Origin: a virus
Strand: one strand, 5' to 3'
Virus record (IMG/VR): IMGVR_UViG_3300044699_000069
Coordinates: 1-37,149 of that record
DNA: 37,149 nucleotides
This document shows positions 1 to 21,112 of the stretch, in pieces. The notes below the pieces were generated by a model. It did not search any database. It was not told where the DNA came from and saw only the letters and a program-made list of their open reading frames with translations. The position numbers were made by a program, and so were the translations under genes. How positions within the stretch are numbered: position 1 is the stretch's first letter; the number at the start of each line of letters is the position of its first letter.

Positions 1-179
1 CGGCCGACCACGGCCCGGCGCCGGCCATCCAGCGCGTCTCGATGTCGAGGCCGACGAGCTGGGGGACGCCGGCCGGGAACGCGGCCTGGAACGCGGCGAG
101 CTGGGCACCGGTGAAGGCTGTCGAGCTCCGGGGCGTGGACCTTGATCCGGCGCCCACCCAGGAACGCATACGTGATCAT
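1..179 (-). CDS. DNA polymerase (family A type), N-terminal fragment
   Basis: Only the first ~60 codons are inside the window; the gene runs off the left end. The start is ATG at 179, overlapping the stop of the upstream zinc-ribbon gene (ATGA). The translation begins MITYAFLGGRRIKV and, after one apparent single-base loss near position 118, continues to GLDIETR. An Asp-x-Glu in this context is the Exo I motif of 3'-5' proofreading exonucleases, which sit at the N-terminus of many phage family A polymerases. It lies downstream of the primase-helicase, as expected for a replication operon. It could instead be a stand-alone 3'-5' exonuclease, because the polymerase domain is not in the window. 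Confidence 0.6.
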   Translation of the reverse strand, partial: MITYAFLGGRRIKVHAPELDSLHRCPARRVPGRVPGRRPPARRPRHRDALDGRRRAVVG

Positions 180-330
180 GAGACAGTCACTCTCCGTGAA
201 CCTCGGGCCGTGGCCGGGTGGCACGTCGGACAGGCGAACCAGTGACCATCCACCAGCACCTCGGGGCCCCGCACTGGGTGCAACGGGGGGCTTCCGTGGT
301 CGCTAACGCCTGAATCCTTTCAGGATAACA
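176..330 (-). CDS. Small zinc-ribbon protein
   Basis: A reading frame of about 50 codons ends in TGA at 176-178, overlapping the ATG of the downstream polymerase gene. It encodes two CxxC knuckles about 16 residues apart (RCTQCG and ACPTCH), followed by a short basic tail; this is a typical zinc ribbon. One single-base loss near 262 separates the two knuckles into different frames. No good start codon is visible, so the 5' end is approximate. Similar tiny zinc ribbons are common in actinophage replication regions and usually have unknown function. Translational coupling to the polymerase suggests co-expression. I cannot assign a specific role. Confidence 0.5.
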
Positions 331-351
331 GACTCCCGAGCGCTTGTAACT

Positions 352-532
352 GTGGCAGTTGTGGCAGTTCCGGCCCCTACTGTTACTCCGTGGGGGACGA
401 ATGGTTTTCGAGTTGAGTAACCGGCTCACTACTCTCCGTAGCAAGGAGTGCTTGCGCGTCTTGATCCACGGGTGAAAACTCCACGTCTCCGTAGGTAGTA
501 ACAGTAGGGTCCGGAACTGCCACAACTGCCAC
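352..532. repeat. 36-bp near-perfect inverted repeat with internal 9-bp tandem repeats
   Basis: The left arm (352-387) and right arm (497-532) are reverse complements at 35 of 36 positions; the single mismatch is in the GGCCCCT/GGACCCT region. Each arm carries two adjacent copies of GTGGCAGTT. The arms are 109 nt apart. The right arm lies inside the last ~45 codons of the primase-helicase gene, and the left arm contains its TAA stop (383-385) and the following untranslated bases. On the mRNA this would form a very long hairpin. Possible roles are a replication origin with iterons, a terminator or mRNA-stability element, or an inserted MITE-like element. Confidence 0.9.
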
Positions 533-2735
533 GCTTCCCATGATCGACTCGTACAGGTCGCGGACATTCCCCTCGTTCCAGGTGTTCTCCGGACGAATAC
601 GGACATTCCACCCTCTCTTACCGGTGCCCCCTTCCCTAACCTCCCGGGCTCCAGGCACCCGGCCAGCCGTCCGGCGAACGCTTTACGCCCGAGCTCGGCC
701 GCGCCCACCTCGGCCGCCCAGCGCTTGAACGCCGAGTAAAGCTCACTCACCGTAGCCCCCAGCCGGTCGCCCTCGGTGAGCTCGCACCGGTCGTCCACCC
801 ACTGGCGCACCCGGTCGCTCGCGCGCTCGAACAGCTCCACCACGCGGGGTCGGCAGCGAGCGCGCCACCCCTCGCGCGCCGCACCTGCCAGGCCGTCACC
901 AACCGCACCGCGATACCCGGCAGCTCGGCCCGGAGCTGGGACTCCAGCGAGGGTCCTCGTGGCCCTCGAACGAGCGGCCGAACAGCACCGGCACCATGCG
1001 CGCGACGTAGGCGCGGCTGTTCTCTCCGACGGCCGGCAGCTCGTTGGCCGAGAAGGCGAACAGCGCCCGGTTGCGGAACTCGAACTGGTGCCCGTACTTG
1101 CGGTTGGCCGTGATCACGTCCTCACCGGTGAGCCGCTTGAACAGCGACAGGTCCCGCACGTCGGCCGCCCGGACGTCCGCGTCCACGTTCAGCCGCTTCC
1201 CGTACAGGTTGGCCGCCGCGAAATGATCATCGGAGAGCTGGTGCAGGCTCACCCCGGCCACGAACTCGGGCCCCAGCAGGGCCTCCAGGAGCCGGAGAAA
1301 CGTCGACTTGCCCGAGCGCGCCGGGCCGAACAGGAACAGGGCCTTGGCCGGCGACGAGCTGGCGTCCAGGATCGCGCTCGCGGCCTCCAGCAGGATGTCG
1401 GCCTGGGCACCGGCCGAGCCCTCCAGCCACTCCTTGAACACCGGCGCCTCGGCGTCCGGCACCCAGTCCACCGTGAGCTGGTGCGTCGAGCGGTAGGCCG
1501 GGCTGTGCGCCAGCAACTCCCCGGTCTCCAGGTCCAGCATCCGTTGCGGAAGTTGACCAGCGGCCGGTCCGCGTACTCCGGCAGCCGCTCACCGAGCCGC
1601 GCGAGCTCGGCCACCAGGAACTCCTCCACGTTCGCCCGGCGCCCGGTGGTGTAGGCGTCGCCCAGCCGGTCGGAGATGGCCCCACGGACGGCCAACGGGT
1701 CGATCACGTAGACACCGTCCCGGTAGACGGCCACCGTGTCGTCGCGCGCCAGCACGGCGCTGTGCTCGTCCCTGATCGCGGCGGCCAGGTGCTCCACCAG
1801 GAGCGCGCCGTCCGCGTCGAACCAGGGCGACACCCCACCCTCCCGGTCGGCTTTCTTGGCCTCGGGGCGGCGCGCGTGCGGGCATCAGGGGCTTGTCCGA
1901 CGGCCTCATGGCCTCCGTGTCCGCAATCAGGCCCTCCAGGAGCCTGGTGCGGCGCTCAGAGGCCACCCCGCCCAGGACGTCGTCCAGCCCGGACTTGCCC
2001 CCGGCCGGGAGCCGGACGAACCGCACCTCCCGGGCCCCGTTCATCCGGAGCGCGGCGCCCAGCTTGTCCCGGCGTCGTAGACGGCCCGGTTGGTGCCGGC
2101 GTCCGCGTCGAGCACCACGAACACCCGGCGCCCGTCCACCACCTCCAGGTGCGCGCTCGGCACGCCGGCCGTCATCCAGCTCTGGCAGCCGGCGATGCCG
2201 TAGACGGCCCAGCCCTCGGGCGCGTACGCGGCTGCCGCGATGGCCTGGCACGTGCCCTCCACCAGCAGGACGTTGGTCACCGAGCTGTCCGGGCGCGCCG
2301 CGTGGAGCACCGAGCGCGCGCCCTTGGCGAACACGTACTTGGCGGTAACCCGTCGGCCGTCCTCGGTCTCGCGCACCACCGGGACGTCGGGCCGGAGCTG
2401 GAGCTCCACGGCGCCGTCCGGGCCGACGTACCGGAACAGGAGCCCGGGCAGGTAGCCGGCCTCTACCGTCCAGTAGTCGGGCGCGCCGCGGTGGCAGGTC
2501 ACTCGGGCCCTGGACCGACGTCACGCCGGCCAACCAGGCCGTCTCCTCACTGATCGCCCGAGCCGCGAGGAGGGCCCTCTGGGTGTCACTGAAGGATGTT
2601 GCTGTGGGCAGATCGTCAGTCAACGCGATACGCTCCGCTCGTCTCTCGGATTCCGGTCTAGGCCGGGTGTCGGTCCAGAGCACGCGACGCGCGGTCGCCC
2701 CGGGTACGCCGGGGAGGGGCCGCGCGTCGTGTCAT
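383..2735 (-). CDS. Primase-helicase: Toprim domain plus D5/SF3 helicase
   Basis: This ~780-aa replication protein is broken by at least six apparent single-base losses, but its domain order is clear. The Toprim-like part has VLLVEGTCQA and FVVLDADAG (the catalytic Glu and DxD). A D5-N-type region follows (around 1540-1830). The SF3 helicase has Walker A FGPARSGKSTF, the ITANRKYGHQFEF segment and FSANELP typical of D5-family helicases. The D5 C-terminal winged domain is VDDRCEL...SELYSAFKRW. The acidic tail ends at TAA 383-385 inside a long inverted repeat. I prefer ATG 2735, which overlaps the stop of the HTH gene (ATGA); GTG 2683 is an alternative without a clear ribosome site. Its role is priming and unwinding at the phage replication fork, next to the polymerase. 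Confidence 0.85.
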
Positions 2736-2947
2736 CTTCCGCCCGCTGGGCGCGGCTGTACAGCCGCTTGGACCTCCTCGCGGCAGAACCGGACCCAGTA
2801 GCCGGCCGGGCCCTTGGTGAACTTCTGGATCAGCTCGGCACTCGCCCAGCGTTCGATCGTCCGAGGCCCGACGTTGGCCAGGCCGGCGGCCTCGTCCTTG
2901 GTGATCAGACACCCGGACGCGCCCTCGGTGTGCTTGTGCTCGGTCAC
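2732..2947 (-). CDS. Small helix-turn-helix protein, excisionase/MerR-like
   Basis: An intact 71-aa frame starts at GTG 2947, which overlaps the TGA of the preceding gene. The central stretch LITKDEAAGLANVGPRTIER fits an excisionase-type winged HTH (HTH_17): a helix that chooses a site, 'xxxTIERW', then a wing with aromatic residues (GPAGYWVRF). Such proteins bind DNA either as recombination directionality factors or as small regulators. No integrase or attachment site is visible in this window, so a regulatory or replication-accessory role is as likely as excision. It is coupled to the primase gene downstream by an ATGA overlap. Confidence 0.7.
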   Translation of the reverse strand: MTEHKHTEGASGCLITKDEAAGLANVGPRTIERWASAELIQKFTKGPAGYWVRFCREEVQAAVQPRPAGGR

Positions 2948-3174
2948 GCGCTCCAGCCCTTCATCTGCACCAACCACGCCTTGAACGTGATCAGCGGGTG
3001 CTCCCGGACGTACTCCTCGTATTCGGTCGCCCAGCCGTTGGTGGCGGCCTCGGCCTGCTGGACGTCGTTCTCCCGTGCGGCCTGGTACTCGGTCACGAAC
3101 GATCGGTGACGGCAGGCCCGGTGACAGCCCGGCGCGTCGCCGCGCCGGGCCACCATCCCCTTGGTGCACGGCAT
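2944..3174 (-). CDS. Hypothetical 76-aa early protein
   Basis: An intact 76-aa frame starts at ATG 3174 in a TGATG overlap with the upstream gene and ends in a GTGA overlap with the HTH gene. The N-terminus is rich in Cys, His and Arg (PCTKGM...CHRACRHRSF), which could bind a metal ion. The middle is a charged, probably helical segment (EYQAARENDVQQAEAATNGW) and the C-terminus is hydrophobic and aromatic (ITFKAWLVQMKGW). I do not recognise a family. Tight coupling on both sides supports that it is a real gene of the leftward early operon. Confidence 0.6.
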   Translation of the reverse strand: MPCTKGMVARRGDAPGCHRACRHRSFVTEYQAARENDVQQAEAATNGWATEYEEYVREHPLITFKAWLVQMKGWSA

Positions 3175-3833
3175 CAGGCCCTCTTACCTCGTCGCCAGCC
3201 TCTCGGCCGCTTGTCGCTGTCCGGGCCCTTACCTCGGGGGCCGTCGTACTTCGGGGGCTCGGCCCCACCCTCACGCGCCGGACTCTTCCGGAACTGGTTG
3301 CGGCCCCTGCCACCCCTGCCCGTGGGGTTGCCGCTCTGGTCACCCCGGCGGCCCTCCTTGGGGTAGACCGGTTCGATCATGCCGGGCGCCGGAGCGCCCG
3401 TGCACAGCCGGTGGCCGCAGTTGATCAGGCACGAACAGAGGTTGACCGAGCCCGAGCCGGTACAGCGCCGGCACGTGGCCGAGCGCCCGGCACCGGCCGC
3501 TGGGTTCTGACCGAGCGCCGGGGGCTTGTCCGAGTCCCGACGGAATCGGCCGCCCCGGCGCGGCTTCTCCTCCCCGGTCACGCCGGCTCGTCCGGCGAAT
3601 CCAGCGCTCGGTCCTGGGGTTGATGTTGAACCCCGGACCCAGGGCGCCGTGACGCGGGTGACGTGGGGCACCCGTTGGCGTCGAACGGGCACCCGAACCC
3701 GGGACCGGTGCCCCAACGGATGGCCGGTCCAGCGAACCGCGCGGCCCACTCGGCCCGGGCCGTCTCCCGCTGGCGCTCCAGCTCCTCCTCGCGCGACCCG
3801 GTCCCTCCGCATCCTGTCCATGACTCTCGGCAT
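3174..3833 (-). CDS. Cys-rich early protein with C-terminal FRKSPAR tag
   Basis: This is the first gene of the leftward operon: ATG 3833 follows a GAGGAG ribosome site and lies ~40 nt downstream of the minus-strand -10 box. Several single-base losses disrupt it. The assembled product has a charged N-terminal helix (REEELERQRETARAEWAARF), a GFGCPFDANGCP segment, and a Cys cluster (TCRRCTGSG...NLCSCLINCGHRLC) that looks like a zinc-binding site. Near the end, at 3242-3300, it carries NQFRKSPAREGGAEPPKY, a near copy of the N-terminal tag in the two plus-strand proteins at 4745 and 5080. The C-terminus is very basic. Its function is unknown; nucleic-acid binding is plausible from the basic and Cys-rich composition. 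Confidence 0.55.
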   Translation of the reverse strand: MPRVMDRMRRDRVARGGAGAPAGDGPGRVGRAVRWTGHPLGHRSRVRVPVRRQRVPHVTRVTAPWVRGSTSTPGPSAGFAGRAGVTGEEKPRRGGRFRRDSDKPPALGQNPAAGAGRSATCRRCTGSGSVNLCSCLINCGHRLCTGAPAPGMIEPVYPKEGRRGDQSGNPTGRGGRGRNQFRKSPAREGGAEPPKYDGPRGKGPDSDKRPRGWRRGKRA

Positions 3834-3870
3834 GTCGTCTCCTCGGTGCTCGTGTCGGTCCGTCGGTGCC

Positions 3871-3900
3871 AGTATCGCATCCTGTCGCTAGCTTGCGCAA
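3871..3900 (-). promoter_or_regulatory. Leftward early promoter
   Basis: The minus strand reads TTGCGC (3900-3895), an 18-nt spacer, then GATACT (3876-3871). It points at the leftward replication operon, whose first ATG is at 3833. Its -35 box lies in the palindrome CTTGCGCAAG, shared with the rightward promoter. Confidence 0.5.
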
Positions 3901-3921
3901 GTCTACGCTAGTCGGTAGGGT
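3893..3921 (+). promoter_or_regulatory. Rightward early promoter
   Basis: TTGCGC (3893-3898), a 17-nt spacer and TAGGGT (3916-3921) fit a sigma-70-type promoter 40 nt upstream of the first rightward gene (ATG 3961, with AAGGAG upstream). The flanking CTAGC and GCTAG half-sites around CTTGCGCAAG suggest an operator that could control both directions. Confidence 0.55.
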
Positions 3922-3960
3922 GGTCCTCGGACCGACATCCGCACGACCAAGGAGACGACG

Positions 3961-4351
3961 ATGCCCGTCCTGAAGAACCCCCGGACCCTGCTCGTCAAGC
4001 ACACCCGCGACCTGAAGCGGCTTCCGAGAGCATCACCACCACCTGATGACGTGGTCACGCGTCGCGCACCGTCTGGGAAAGCGGGCACCACCCGTCGGCC
4101 GCGCCCGGCCAACGAGCACGTGGACCACCGGCCCGAGCTCTGGGTGACGCGCGCCGGCGAGCTGGTGGCCATGTCCAACGTCATCCAGGAGGCGGACCTG
4201 CTTGATCAGGTTCAAGATGGCCCAGCTCGGCCGCTGACGCCCGAGGCGTCGACATCGGCGCGCGGGAGGCCCTGAGCCGGCTCACCCCGGTGGAGGTCGC
4301 CACACTCCTGGCCCTGGAGGTCTGGGACGGCTCCCTCCCCAGGTGCCGTGA
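3961..4351 (+). CDS. Hypothetical first rightward early protein
   Basis: ATG 3961 follows AAGGAGACGACG and is the first start after the rightward promoter. The frame opens MPVLKNPRTLLVKHTRDLK, runs through LWVTRAGELVAMSNVIQEADLLDQV, and after a one-base loss near 4245 continues VDIGAREALSRLTPVEVATLLALEVWDG. The expected stop is TGA 4349-4351, overlapping the next start. The middle (4020-4130) has low-complexity basic sequence and may contain a further frame error. No family is recognised. The helical, Leu-rich C-terminus could mediate oligomerisation. Confidence 0.45.
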
Positions 4352-4739
4352 TGGTGTGGCCCGAGGCCATCGTGGCCGGCATCGGCGCCCTGGGTGCGAG
4401 CGCGGCCTACGTCGCGCACAAGGCGCGCAACTACACCGGGGGCTGGTCGGAGGGGGACATCAACCGGTTCAACGCCCGGAACGGTACCTACGACGCCGGC
4501 CTGGAATACCGACGAGTACAACCGGCGGCAAGCCACCCCCGCCGTTCCAGCCCCCGGCCGCGCCCCCGGCGTACTACTTCCTGCCCCAGAGCTCGGCCCC
4601 GACGACCGACTGGGCGACGTTCTACGAGGCCCAGGACGCCGCGCGCCGGGAGGGCACCTCGCGGTTCGGTGAGGGTGGCTGGCGAGAGAGCCCCGAGGAC
4701 ACCCAGCCTCCCCCGTACGACGGACCGACAGGACGGTAA
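4348..4739 (+). CDS. Hypothetical protein with N-terminal hydrophobic helix and Pro-rich tail
   Basis: The start is GTG 4348 or ATG 4351, overlapping the upstream stop. The N-terminus MMVWPEAIVAGIGALGASAA is a hydrophobic helix that may insert in the membrane. It is followed by GGWSEGDINRFNARNGTYDAGLEYR, then, after two apparent single-base losses (near 4508 and 4540), a Pro-rich region (FQPPAAPPAYYFLPQSS), an aromatic segment TTDWATFYEAQDAARREG and a C-terminal PPPYDGP. The stop is TAA 4737-4739. The related PPKYDGP string also occurs at the end of the Cys-rich minus-strand protein (3174-3833), hinting at a shared origin of these small early proteins. Function unknown. Confidence 0.5.
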
Positions 4740-4744
4740 CGGCC

Positions 4745-5083
4745 ATGATCAAGTTCAGGAAGAGTCCGGCGCGCAACGGTGGCGCCCAGCCCCCGAGCTG
4801 GCGCGAACAGCACGGCCGAAACCAGGTCCGTCGTGACGCCGATCGGCTGTGGGCGCGCATCACGAGCGGCCAGGAGGGCGACTGGCAACGCCCCGGCTGG
4901 ACCTTGCACCCGGGCTACACCTGGGAGGACTACGTCAGGGACGGCCAGCCGTCCCAGCGCCAAGTCCTGCGCCGGGTGGAGGCCCTGGACCTCCTGGTCT
5001 CCGAGGGCAAGCTGACCAAGATCACAGGCACCAACGGCATGGAGTACATGATCAACCGAGGCCCGGGAGGGTGGTTCAGGTGA
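4745..5083 (+). CDS. FRKSPAR-tag protein A with probable winged-helix C-terminus
   Basis: An intact 112-aa frame. The N-terminus (residues 3-18) is KFRKSPARNGGAQPPSW, nearly identical to the start of the next gene and to a stretch in the 3174-3833 protein. The middle is charged and aromatic (WARITSGQEGDWQRPGWTLH), and the C-terminal half (PSQRQVLRRVEALDLLVSEG then KLTKITGTNGMEYMIN) has the helix-turn-strand pattern of a winged helix-turn-helix. I infer DNA binding, perhaps as an early regulator. It begins five bases after the previous stop and overlaps the next gene by GTGA. This is one of the few undamaged genes in the left half, so its sequence is reliable. Confidence 0.65.
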   Translation: MIKFRKSPARNGGAQPPSWREQHGRNQVRRDADRLWARITSGQEGDWQRPGWTLHPGYTWEDYVRDGQPSQRQVLRRVEALDLLVSEGKLTKITGTNGMEYMINRGPGGWFR

Positions 5084-5442
5084 AGTTCCGCAAGAGCCCA
5101 GCACGCAACGGCGGCGCCAAGCCCCCGAGCTGGCGTCAGCGACGCCGGATGGAGCGCGAGGCCACGCGGGACCTCCAGGTGGCCACCGACTCCCTGTGGA
5201 TCTACACCAAGTTTCTCCGGGAGACTTCCAGCTCGGGTTCCGCCCGGCGACGGACCTGCGCCCGCGCGTCGTGACGCCGGCCGAGCTGGGCGCGCTGTTG
5301 ATCTCTCAGGGTGGAGCGCGGCTGGTCCGAGCGCCGAGTCCAGGAGGCACTGGAGCACGGCGTCCGGGACGGTTGGGTCCGGCGCGTCGCCACCACCGAC
5401 GGCCGGCGTGGCTACGCCGTCGTGCCCGAGCGGTTCCGGTAG
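5080..5442 (+). CDS. FRKSPAR-tag protein B, paralogue of the upstream gene
   Basis: GTG 5080 overlaps the TGA of the preceding gene. The N-terminus KFRKSPARNGGAKPPSW repeats the tag of its neighbour, followed by a basic helix (RQRRRMEREATRDLQVATDSLW). After two single-base losses (near 5222 and 5312) the C-terminus reads VTPAELGALL...GWSERRVQEALEHGVRDGW and RRVATTDGRRGYAVVPERF, a convincing winged-helix pattern with helix-turn-helix plus wing. The stop is TAG 5440-5442, inside the promoter of the helicase gene. The gene pair looks like an old tandem duplication. DNA binding is inferred; no specific family is recognised. Confidence 0.6.
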
Positions 5443-5468: not shown

Positions 5469-7184
5469 ATGACGACGAACCCGAGACACCCTGAGCTGGA
5501 ACTCCGGCCCTACCAGCACCAGGCCATCAGCGCCCTGGACGCGGCCTGGGCCGGCGTCCGGCGTCCGAGCGCCGGGCCACGCTCCCACGAGGCCGTCAAC
5601 CGGCCGGCGTGCGTCCTGCCGACCGGTAGCGGTAAGACCGTGATCTTCAGCCGGCTCGGGGCCCGGGCGCACGCGGCCGGCGGCCGAGCGCTGTTCCTGG
5701 TCCACCGGGACGAGCTGGTCACCCAGACCGTGGCCAAGCTGAAGATGTCGGCGCCGGGGGCCTGGATCGGCGCCGTCAAGGCCGAGCAGAACGAGGTGGA
5801 CGCGGACCTCGTGGTGGCCAGCGTCCAGACCTTGGCGCGCGAGTCCAGGCGAGCCATGATCTCCCAGCGCGGCCTGATGCTCGGCGTGGCCGACGAGGCC
5901 CACCACGCGGCGTCTCCGAGCTGGATGACCACCATGGCGCACTTCGGCGCCTACCGGCCGATGGACCACCCCGGCCGCGTCCCGTGGGCGGGCTTCACGG
6001 CCACCATGGCGCGCGAGGACCGGCGCGGCCTGGGCGACGTGTGGGAGGAGATCGCGTTCAGTCGGTCCATCGGCCAGATGGTGGCGGACGGCTACCTGGT
6101 CAAGCCCGTCGGCCGACGTGTCCAGGTGGAGGACTTGAACCTGGCCAAGGTGCGGGCGAGTCGGGGGGACCTCCAGGCCAACGACCTGGGGGACGCGCTG
6201 ATGGACGCCGGAGCGCCCGGCGCGGCGGCGCGCGCCGTCCTGGAGCACGCCAAGGACCGCCACACGGCAGCGTTCTGGCCGACGGTCGCCACGGCCGAGG
6301 CTTTCGTGGACGAGTGCAAGGCCCTGGGTTTGACAGCCGAGCTGATCGTGGGCACGACCAAGACCGAGGACCGGCGCGCGGCGTACGAGCGGTTCCGCAC
6401 CGGCGAGACGTCGGTCTTGTCGACGCCATGGTGCTCACCGAGGGCTGGGACGCGCCGTGGTGCGATTGCATCCTGATCGGTCGTCCGACCCAGTCGCGCT
6501 CGCTGTTCATCCAGATGATCGGCCGAGGTCTGCGGCCCTGGACGCCGGCCGGCAAGACCGATTGCCTGGTCCTGGACCTCATGGGCGCGAGCGAGCGCAA
6601 CGGGCTGGCCACGCTGGCCGAGCTGGACCTGACGCCGGACGACGAGGACAAGCCCGAGCGCAAGACCAAGCCCAACGACGTGGACGAGGAGCTACTGGAC
6701 GAGCTGGACGAGGACGGCGCGCTCTGGGAGGAGCCCACCGGCCCCCCTGGTGGCGCGCGACGTCGACCTGTTCGCGGACTCCCCGAGCCTGTGGCTCCAG
6801 ACCGAGGACCGGGGCTGGTGGTTCATCCCTCACCGACGGCGCCGTCTACTTCCTCTACCCCCAGAGCACCGGCATGTTCGCGCTCGGCCGCGCCCAGACC
6901 GGCAACGTCCGCAAGGTGGAGCGGCTGGAGAAGGACATGAGCCTGGAGTACGCCATGGCCTGGGCCGAGACCTACGCGCGGAGGAGGACAGCCCGTTCGG
7001 CACCATCAGCCGGAGGACGGCCAAGTGGCGGCAGGGCCGCGCCGCGCCGACGCGCCAGCAGGTCACCATGGCCAAGTTCCACGGCGTCCCCGAGGAGCTG
7101 ATTCTGGCGTGCCAGACCAAGCGCGAGCTGGCCGACTTGATCAGCGTCCGGATGGCCACCAAGGTCTTGGCCAAGGTGTCTTGA
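5469..7184 (+). CDS. SF2 DEAD/DEAH-type DNA helicase
   Basis: This ~570-aa ATP-dependent helicase shows motif [10 protein letters not shown], motif II VADEAHH, motif III AGFTATM, the C-terminal RecA lobe with [14 protein letters not shown] (after restoring one G at ~6420), and motif [11 protein letters not shown]. An N-terminal [12 protein letters not shown] is the Q-like motif of type III restriction/RecG-like helicases. After the helicase core come an acidic linker ([18 protein letters not shown]) and a C-terminal domain. About four single-base losses interrupt it (near 6420, 6745, 6827, 6985). There is no ribosome site; the -10 box is 6 nt from the ATG, so the mRNA is probably leaderless. 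Likely role: unwinding in phage replication or recombination, together with the downstream nuclease. Confidence 0.85.
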
Positions 7185-18155: not shown

Positions 18156-21112
18156 TCAGTTGATAATGATGGTGGCCAACCAGTCGATTTCGATGGCCAA
18201 TGACGTGCTGATCACCAGGGTAAATGCAGTAGTTGAATACGCCGTTAGCTTGTGGTTGAAGTTGGTGGCCGAGCCGTTCCGGACGGCGTAGAAGGGGCGA
18301 GGAGCGGTAACCATCGTCGGCCGTAGGTCATCGTAAAGCTGGTGCCCGCGATCGTGGCGAAAGCACCCGGCATGAACAGGTCATCCGAGCCCAACGACGT
18401 CACCGTGGAGTCGTGGAGCTTTCCCGTGTAACGTGAAATAGTCGTCCTCGAGATCGTGATTCCGGCCTGCATTGTGGTCCCGGTGTCGTCCCCAGACGGC
18501 CATCCGGCAACGCTCGTCCCCGCCCGAGTGAATGCCTGGAAACCTGAGACCAAGCTGTTTGTTGTCCAACCAGTAACCCGCGTAGAACGCGTTTGTTGAA
18601 CGCGTAAAGACCGGCCTTCAGAATGTCACCCGGGAAGTAGCCCGCGATGATCTGGCCACGGTCCGCGTAGTACAGGCCACCCGAGGCACCGAAATCACTC
18701 CGGAGGTACCCGGAGCGCCAGTGACCGGTGGAGTACAACGTCCCGAAGTAATTATCGTTCGCGTCCAGGCTTGACCGAATTCGGATGCCGGACTCGGCAC
18801 CACCGTAATAGCTCTGAGTGTCGATCAGGGAAAAGTCCCCGTTGTCCGAGCTGTAGAACCTGATCTGGCCCTCGCCGCCGGACGGGTTGATCCGTACCCG
18901 GCGGCCGGCCGCGCTCGTGGTCAGCTCTCCCACCATCGACACGTTTCCGGACGTATCGGCCAGGAACGTGTTAATTCCGGACGAATCGTACGTGTAGAAC
19001 CCGGTGGAGTCCATGGTGGCCCGGGCGCCGGCCAGCGCCGTCTGGATGCTCCCAGCCATCAACCACTGGGCCGTGATGCTTCCGGCCGTGACCTTGCTGA
19101 CGGACAGGTCGCTGATGTGCGCGTTGTCGATCAGGACGACCGACACCCCGGCGGCCGGGCTCGCGGCCGAGCGGTTGCCGGTCCGGTCGACGGCCACCAC
19201 CTTGACCTGGACGCCGTCCACCTGGGCGATGGTGAAGGTGCCCACCACCGGCACGCCGGCACGCATCAGGCCGACGTTGGCCTGGAGCTTGCCCACCCGG
19301 GTGGACTCATCCGGGGTGAACGCGGGGTCACCCGAGACGTGGACCTCCAGGTGGTCCAGGTCCGGCTCCAGGTTGAACGTGCCCCCGGCGTTGACGCCGA
19401 GCCGGTGGACCACCTGGACGGCCACCTGGGAGCCGGCCACCTCGGGCGCGGCCGGCTGGGACGGCGCGAGGTTGTCCAGCGCGGCCGGCACGGTCCAGCT
19501 CGCGCTGAACGCCGAGCGGTTCGGCGGGCTCGCGGTGTCGACGGCAGGACACCTGGAACTCGTAGTTGACTCCCGGCGTCAGCTCGCTGACCAGCACCGT
19601 GTTGGTGCCCCAGGGCACGTACTCCGTGCGCCAGTTGGTGTCCGTGATGGCTGGAATGAGCGGTTGCTGGTGGGTGAGGAGCTGGTCATGGTGCTTGCTG
19701 GCCATCTGGAGGTGCGTGGCCGGGTAGGGTTGATCGTCACCGGCCGATGGCGGCACCTCGTAGTGGTCGCCATCGACCACGGTGGAGCCGTCCGTGTTCA
19801 GCGGCGTGGTCCAGGTGAGCTGGACGACGGCCTTGGTGTCCGAGGTGCCCTGGAGCGCCGTCTGGTAGGCGGACGTCGCGCTCGCGCTGAACGTGGGGGT
19901 GGCCGGGATGCTGGAGTCCGGGAGCGGCCGAGAGCCCACCTGCTGGTAGCTGTTCGCCAGGATCTCGCGGTTGAACTGGCCGACCACCACGGTGGTGGCG
20001 CCGGCCTCGGGCACGTAGTAGCGAGACAGGTCGGTCCACGTGCCGTTGCCGTCCCGGAAGGCCACCGTCCAGCCCTCGGGGACCGGCCAAGTCATCTCGG
20101 TGACCTGGACGTAGAGCGGGTTGATCACCAGGCCCCGGTAAACCTGCTCCCGCGCGGGGTCGCTGAAGCCGTTGGCAGGGGTCGAAGATCATGATGGTGT
20201 CGCCCACCACGAACTCGCCCTTGACGTCGTAGGCCGAGGTGTCCAGCGTGACGGCGTAGCGGGTCGAGCTGAAGCGGTTGAGCTGGAGCGTGGCGCGCAC
20301 CAGCGCGTTGCCCCCCGACGTGTCGGCCTCGCTGATCAGCCGGGTGAGCTTGACCGGGTTGCCCCGAATGTCCTTGTACGGCACGACGCCGAGTGAGGCC
20401 GAGCCGGTAGCCGTGGAGCCCTCCTCGCCCTCGGCCAGCAGGACGACGCGCGTGGTGTAGTCGGACAGGTCGCTGTCCAGCTCCAGGTTGCCCCGCATCC
20501 CTACGATGGCGAGGTCTCGGCCCTCGGCCTCGTTCTTGGCCACCAGCATGGCCACCGGCGTCGTCGGTAGAGCGCGGATTCCGGGCCGGCGTCCACCGTG
20601 CCGTTGCCGTTGACGCGCCAGCCCACCGGCACCGTGCTGGAGCCGAACGTGTCCGTGACGTAGGTGAGCGCGTCCCTGGGGGACTGATAGATGAACCTGC
20701 TGGTGAAGGCCCCGCCGTCGCCCGGAACAGCCGTCAGCGTGCCCACGGTGACCGACAGGACGGACGCCAGCAGGGTGGTCACCGTAGCGCTGAAAGTCCC
20801 GGACGCTGTGATCCCGGTCTCGTAGACGTAGCCCTTGCTGTCCTCGTCCCCCAACCAGAACGCCATCCCGGCGCCGCTCAGGATGGTTCTGCCGTCCTCG
20901 CCACCGGCCTCGCGGCGCCGGTACACCCCCACGTAGCGCGCGGCGCTCAGGAGGCTGTCCCCGGCCGCCTGGATGTCGCCCTCGGTCATCCGGCCGGGGA
21001 GCACGGCGAGGTGGCCGAACGGCGTCACGGCGTCCAGGACGTCGGCCGGCGTCTCGGCCCGGAGCGTGAGCTGCCAGGAGCCGAGGGCCTGTCGGACCTC
21101 GGTCACGCTCAC
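18156..21112 (-). CDS. Large minor tail protein with fibronectin-like repeats
   Basis: ATG 21112 overlaps the stop of the upstream minor tail gene. Repairing about five base losses gives a ~985-aa protein. The N-terminal region (VRQALGSWQLTLRAETPADV) resembles tail-hub/baseplate domains; the middle includes TMTWPVPEGWTVAFRD-type beta structure and at least one fibronectin III-like domain (VLVSELTPGVNYEFQVSAVD). The distal part has ISDLSVSKVTAGSITAQWLM and MDSTGFYTYDSSGINTF, a pattern seen in siphovirus tail-tip proteins of Gram-positive phages. The C-terminus (FNHKLTAYSTTAFTLVISTS) is beta-rich and ends at 18156. It is likely the central fibre/tip protein that contacts the host. Confidence 0.7.

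Follow-up and report, generated by a model that had tools for sequence, protein, structure and literature searches.

Paired inverted iteron sets at the 3′ end of a phage primase-helicase gene as a probable replication origin core

A large inverted repeat lies at the 3′ end of the primase-helicase gene of this virus, next to a gene for DNA polymerase I, and its position raises the question of whether it acts in DNA replication, acts in the helicase mRNA, or is an inserted element. The stretch analyzed here, referred to as the window, is 37,149 bases long. The repeat consists of a distal arm (352..387, plus strand) and a helicase-proximal arm (497..532, minus strand), each 36 nt long, which are complementary at 35 of 36 positions (97%) and lie 109 nt apart. 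Each arm contains two tandem copies of the 9-bp iteron GTGGCAGTT. The outer and inner copies of the proximal arm are at 524..532 and 515..523 (iterons 1 and 2, minus strand), whereas the inner and outer copies of the distal arm are at 361..369 and 352..360 (iterons 3 and 4, plus strand). The first-pass annotation, which had described a 36-bp inverted repeat with two tandem 9-bp iterons per arm, is confirmed: these four copies are the only ones in the window, compared with 0.27 expected, and four copies were reached in 0 of 100 shuffles. A third block, CCGGACCCTACTGTTACT, occupies the rest of the proximal arm (497..514, minus strand). The central segment (388..496), a candidate melting region, is 44% AT, and the window as a whole 30%. 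When the full window was scanned for inverted repeats, this one ranked first by far, with a score of 33.5 and a runner-up of 15.5, and no second iteron site was found in the 37 kb outside the arms. A search for the exact arm pattern returned no match. A search of viral contigs with GTGGCAGTTGTGGCAGTT alone, which returned mostly repetitive protein-coding sequence of unrelated phages, was set aside.

The adjacent gene encodes a D5-type primase-helicase. Its core, the proposed initiator, is the ORF at 896..1540 (minus strand), which contains D5_N and DUF5906, the domains of D5/P4-type primase-helicases. Among PDB entries, the SaPI5 primase-helicase gives the only strong sequence match and is also one of the best fold matches. 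The C-terminal part with a predicted winged-helix region follows at 533..895 (minus strand), split across frames in the window. Beyond the repeat, a segment encoding a C-terminal zinc ribbon (CTQCG...CPTCHP; 208..285, minus strand) is present as pieces in two frames, with a frame change near 265. The start of the DNA polymerase I gene (1..179, minus strand), truncated by the window end, resembles by eye the frame that follows the helicase in the nearest relative. The proximal arm is in coding frame and encodes ...SVAVVAVPDPTVTT...; the ORF that passes through it (383-658, minus strand, frame 2) terminates at a stop codon at 383-385, inside the distal arm. The initial description of one arm as coding and the other as holding the stop therefore holds for the window’s own frame, but the gene end that it implied is doubtful, as the nearest relative has no stop between its arms. 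Across 208-1900 (minus strand), the helicase frame of the window changes at about 1560, 890, 600, and 265, whereas that of the relative is open throughout; sequencing errors or gene decay may account for these changes. Because the gene shifts frame repeatedly and the intact relative is open between the arms, the stop codon may not be a real gene end, and the repeat probably lies inside the helicase ORF in the window.

The nearest relative, L031 (IMG/VR 3300026075_000030), has a helicase 77% identical to that of the window. Its helicase ORF of 821 codons (2909-5374) runs unbroken through both arms of an inverted repeat into a CxxC...CxxC C-terminal zinc ribbon, such that the zinc-ribbon segment is continuous with the helicase ORF. 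The L031 repeat (5046-5090/5156-5200) occupies the same site as that of the window; its arms are 45 nt long, 96% complementary, and 65 nt apart, and its iterons, GGGCAGGTT and GGGCAGTTT, differ in sequence from the window iterons. The arms of the two viruses have diverged, yet each pair is still self-complementary. The L031 repeat is plainly the same element, differently spelled. In the L031 structure model, which is of modest confidence overall (mean pLDDT of 69.6), the encoded segment 343-419 is predicted to be disordered (pLDDT near 31) and is followed by the zinc ribbon (near 80). A helix-helix-beta-hairpin region, which would fit a winged helix, precedes this segment. A tblastn search of phages and plasmids with the C-terminal tail of L031 gave no match. 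A small palindrome, CCTGAA...TTCAGG, located in a coding stretch that is conserved (SVILNGIQ in L031), comes after the repeat in both viruses, at 307-325 in the window and just 3′ of the repeat in L031.

The presence/absence comparison with relatives that the first-pass annotation had proposed thus places a homologous element at the same site in the nearest relative. Because that element has diverged yet remains self-complementary at this site, the repeat is neither an assembly artefact, an option rejected because independent relatives carry the feature, nor an insertion substituting for the original C-terminus, as the same protein is found on both sides of the repeat in L031. That a mobile palindrome, MITE-like or otherwise, entered at the gene end is extremely improbable; a 181-bp MITE-like insertion had been suggested previously. 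Terminal inverted repeats would suit such an element, as would the second copies in L063 and L055, which are closely bounded by the repeat ends and inverted in orientation. However, in agreement with the initial reading, no target-site duplication is seen beside 352-532, the element is single-copy in the window, and in most relatives it keeps its place although its sequence is unrelated. Nor is the site empty in the nearest relative, as sporadic insertion would predict. This constant position with diverged sequence largely refutes a mobile element.

Relatives were collected by a helicase profile search, which yielded 12 genome loci and 35 viral loci. In most members outside the Woodruffviruses, an inverted repeat begins 20-150 bp past the conserved helicase/winged-helix region and spans about 107-155 bp. 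The recurring layout is two tandem ~9-bp iterons, inverted about a 49-109-bp AT-enriched centre, and the iterons of other viruses differ (GTGGCAGAA, GTGTGGGAA, GCAGGCAGA, GGGGCAGA, and TGGCAAATA, among others). Repeats with a score of at least 16 and a centre of at least 25 nt were found in 17 of 35 3′ windows as compared to 11 of 550 control windows, several of the latter being upstream repeats of Woodruffviruses. The recurrence of the layout strongly supports the earlier proposal of an origin with iterons for an initiator. In L038/L056, L057, and L058, the repeat comes after the stop codon or overlaps it. It lies wholly or partly within the open frame in L031, L052-L055, and L059-L063, and is located between the helicase and polymerase genes in several viruses. 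A CCCT-like block at a position similar to that of CCGGACCCTACTGTTACT is found in the longer-armed L031, L054, L062, L063, and L082. The same layout is present in streptococcal satellite L101, streptococcal phage L091, Loigolactobacillus plasmid L100, and the mycobacteriophages Unicorn and Atiba, the latter with the repeat 3′ of the gene. In L041, L063, L073, and L082, the helicase and polymerase I frames are joined without an intervening stop, with the repeat in the junction. These are possible helicase-polymerase fusions, but L063 has an internal GTG preceded by what looks by eye like a ribosome site.

The pattern varies across the family. The Woodruffvirus clade (support 100/99), which comprises Streptomyces phages, has no 3′ repeat and instead carries, in the gap that precedes the primase gene, long inverted repeats scoring 23-47. 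Those of the Woodruffvirus-type L066 (2301-2550) and L074 (1608-1764) have 36-92 bp arms with TTCCCGCG-type repeats. The iteron design is absent in L039, L075, and L081, and inverted repeats lacking clear 9-bp tandems are found in L054/L055 and L078. The same scan found no clear repeat near the gene in seven cultured D5-helicase phages: Arthrobacter Janeemi, Streptomyces Shawty, Curtobacterium Gambol, Microbacterium Didgeridoo, Enterococcus SZ2, Salmonella SP069, and Bordetella BPP-1. The BPP-1 score of 10.5 is not above shuffles; a 3′ stem-loop has been reported for this phage (PMC4234260). A blind search for GTGGCAG iterons in an inverted array identified six viral loci, only three of them beside the helicase of this lineage; one other is near packaging genes, and one is in a phage related to L015. 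The unrelated phages L015 (3792-4082) and L113 (4267-4381) have in common GTGGCAGTTGTGGCAG iterons in an inverted array within a long non-coding stretch, and L015 has a VapE-like helicase ORF upstream.

Whether the symmetry is maintained in DNA or in RNA was addressed with the arms themselves, picked as the best repeat per region, with two pairs coming from near-identical viruses. In this set, self-match within arms is 55% at lag 9 versus 18-31% at other lags, and a tandem repeat is detected at p < 0.05 in 18 of 21 arm sets. The arms are 97% identical to their own partners but 41% identical to the partners of other viruses. Among 44 within-arm mismatches, 8 are G-U-compatible and 36 are not, with about one in six expected by chance. 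This lack of a G-U excess points to selection on DNA rather than on an RNA stem. The centres of 19 relatives average 45% AT versus 33% for the loci, which is a relative enrichment only. Where the origin-like site overlaps an ORF, these comparisons indicate that it is the DNA symmetry, and not the protein linker, that is conserved.

The same data bear on an RNA-level element at the end of the helicase mRNA, such as a terminator, an mRNA-stabilising hairpin, or a translational coupling structure; a very stable mRNA end had been among the first proposals. The predicted fold is indeed very stable on both strands (on the gene strand, −105 kcal/mol versus −62.5 ± 4.6 for shuffles; z = −9.3), and a position between the helicase and polymerase genes in several viruses would suit such a role. 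However, the loops are 49-109 nt long (109 nt in the window), the U-tract is absent, terminator prediction makes no call at the repeat site, and Rfam gives no match for the repeat region. The arms are translated through in L031 and others, and neither the 9-bp periodicity nor the mismatch pattern is that of an RNA stem. The repeat is upstream of the gene in Woodruffviruses, and a gene-end hairpin does not explain the distant second copies described below, some of them near packaging genes. An RNA-level role is therefore disfavoured, and we consider it very improbable.

Copy number further delimits the possibilities. The records of L031, L038, L053, L058, and L059 each contain the iteron pair only once per orientation, while L061 and L062 have one additional near-copy close by. 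L063 has a second complete copy (record G002, 1670-1806) between terminase-like genes, inverted relative to the first and carrying a two-base change that is mirrored in both arms. In L054 and L055, 16-19 kb separate the first copy from a second, which is inverted in L055 (record G009, 6614-6733). In L111, the copy at 6356-6469 is the only known copy of the inverted iteron site; it and the copies in L063 and L055 lie amid terminase, portal, or other virion genes. L063 also has a lone iteron pair without an inverted partner (G002, 19841-19858), about 150 bp upstream of the helicase start and beside a strong hairpin, which is a possible autoregulation site. The pair is as would be predicted for a protein with an additional role in regulating its own gene, and a binding-site layout is by itself no proof of an origin. 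The repeat could thus bind the helicase or another phage protein in an operator-like manner, for autoregulation or partition rather than initiation. We regard this as unlikely, given that the full inverted site is mostly 3′ of or inside the gene, where a promoter operator is not expected, and that pRN1 requires this layout in cis in order to replicate (PMC4234260).

Taken together, the repeat is very probably a replication origin core of the PICI/pRN1 type, bound by the D5-type primase-helicase encoded beside it. The repeat itself, its conserved position and layout, the turnover of its sequence with retained self-complementarity, and the constraint at the DNA level are read directly from the sequences compared; from the origin reading we infer the binding protein, ring loading, melting, priming, and origin activity. 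In the proposed mechanism, the origin core at the 3′ end of the primase-helicase gene would be bipartite, with a tandem pair of 9-bp iterons on one side of an AT-enriched centre and an inverted pair on the other. In this lineage, the ORF includes, or once included, this site, which falls in the stretch of predicted disorder linking the winged-helix region to the zinc ribbon. The D5-type (superfamily 3) helicase would bind the iterons via its C-terminal region, load as two oppositely oriented rings, melt the centre, and prime there, together with the DNA polymerase I specified by the neighboring phage gene. To our knowledge, most tailed phages that encode a D5-type primase-helicase have no mapped origin. 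The layout would provide a simple rule for finding candidate origins from sequence, naming both the exact site and the protein, and the fast turnover of iteron sequence would provide a natural set of initiator-site specificity pairs.

Several known systems share parts of this design. In phage P4, the helicase-primase initiator binds iterons and two cis sites, ori and crr, lie far apart. The two distant copies in L063, L054, and L055 resemble this arrangement, whereas the window differs in that no second site was found. The D5_N helicase Cch2 of SCCmec and the SaPI Rep act on repeats downstream of their own genes, and Cch2 was shown to bind via its C-terminal domain, as proposed here (PMC7581432). 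Cch2 differs in that three 5-nt direct repeats suffice for its binding, its inverted repeats being dispensable for binding (PMC7581432). The origins of PICIs are directly 3′ of rep, the gene for an SF3-type primase-helicase, and have two iteron sets around an AT-rich region (PMC6092414). Here, likewise, the site is immediately 3′ of the primase-helicase gene, or within it as in L031 and probably the window; short iterons in two sets surround a central region, and that centre is AT-rich in the relative sense given above. The viruses differ from PICIs and SaPIs in that their tailed-phage genomes encode a DNA polymerase I of their own, in that some members of the lineage have the site within the helicase ORF or at its end, and in that the arms reach past the iterons to 36-45 bp.

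In pRN1, a stem-loop 3′ of the primase-SF3 helicase gene is required and sufficient in cis, and across the family the structure is kept while the sequence varies, with a stem of about 20 bp and a loop of about 30-60 bp; pRN1 was stated to lack iterons (PMC4234260). The pRN1 origin also tolerates relocation on the plasmid. As a positive control, our scan independently recovered the pRN1 stem, TTATGTCCATAGTGTCCAACT, with a 58-bp loop. This stem holds a 9-bp tandem TGTCCA (TGTCCATAG/TGTCCAACT), and 9-bp tandem half-sites are likewise found in pHEN7 (GTCACCACT GTCACAACT) and pRN2 (GGACCGATA GGACAGGAA). The phage repeat shares with pRN1 a large stem-loop 3′ of a primase-SF3 helicase-winged helix gene, constant in structure and variable in sequence. 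The pRN1 initiator, in contrast, has an N-terminal AEP (Prim-Pol) domain, whereas only D5_N and DUF5906 are detected in the L031 helicase, and the pRN plasmids are archaeal (Sulfolobales), with a non-coding origin. The origin of this tailed-phage lineage, in or at the end of the initiator ORF, is in all likelihood a variant of PICI/pRN1-like origins. On the broader idea that the SF3 primase-helicase replicons of archaeal pRN plasmids, PICIs, and actinophages have one origin architecture in common, with pairs of tandem ~9-bp iterons in opposite orientation on either side of a short AT-enriched centre next to the initiator gene, we are evenly divided. If it is correct, the pRN1 stem-loop would be paired inverted iteron sets rather than an extruded hairpin, and the origin in this phage lineage would be written within the initiator’s own reading frame. 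The comparison brings together the PICI iteron-origin and pRN1 stem-loop literatures as two descriptions of one layout.
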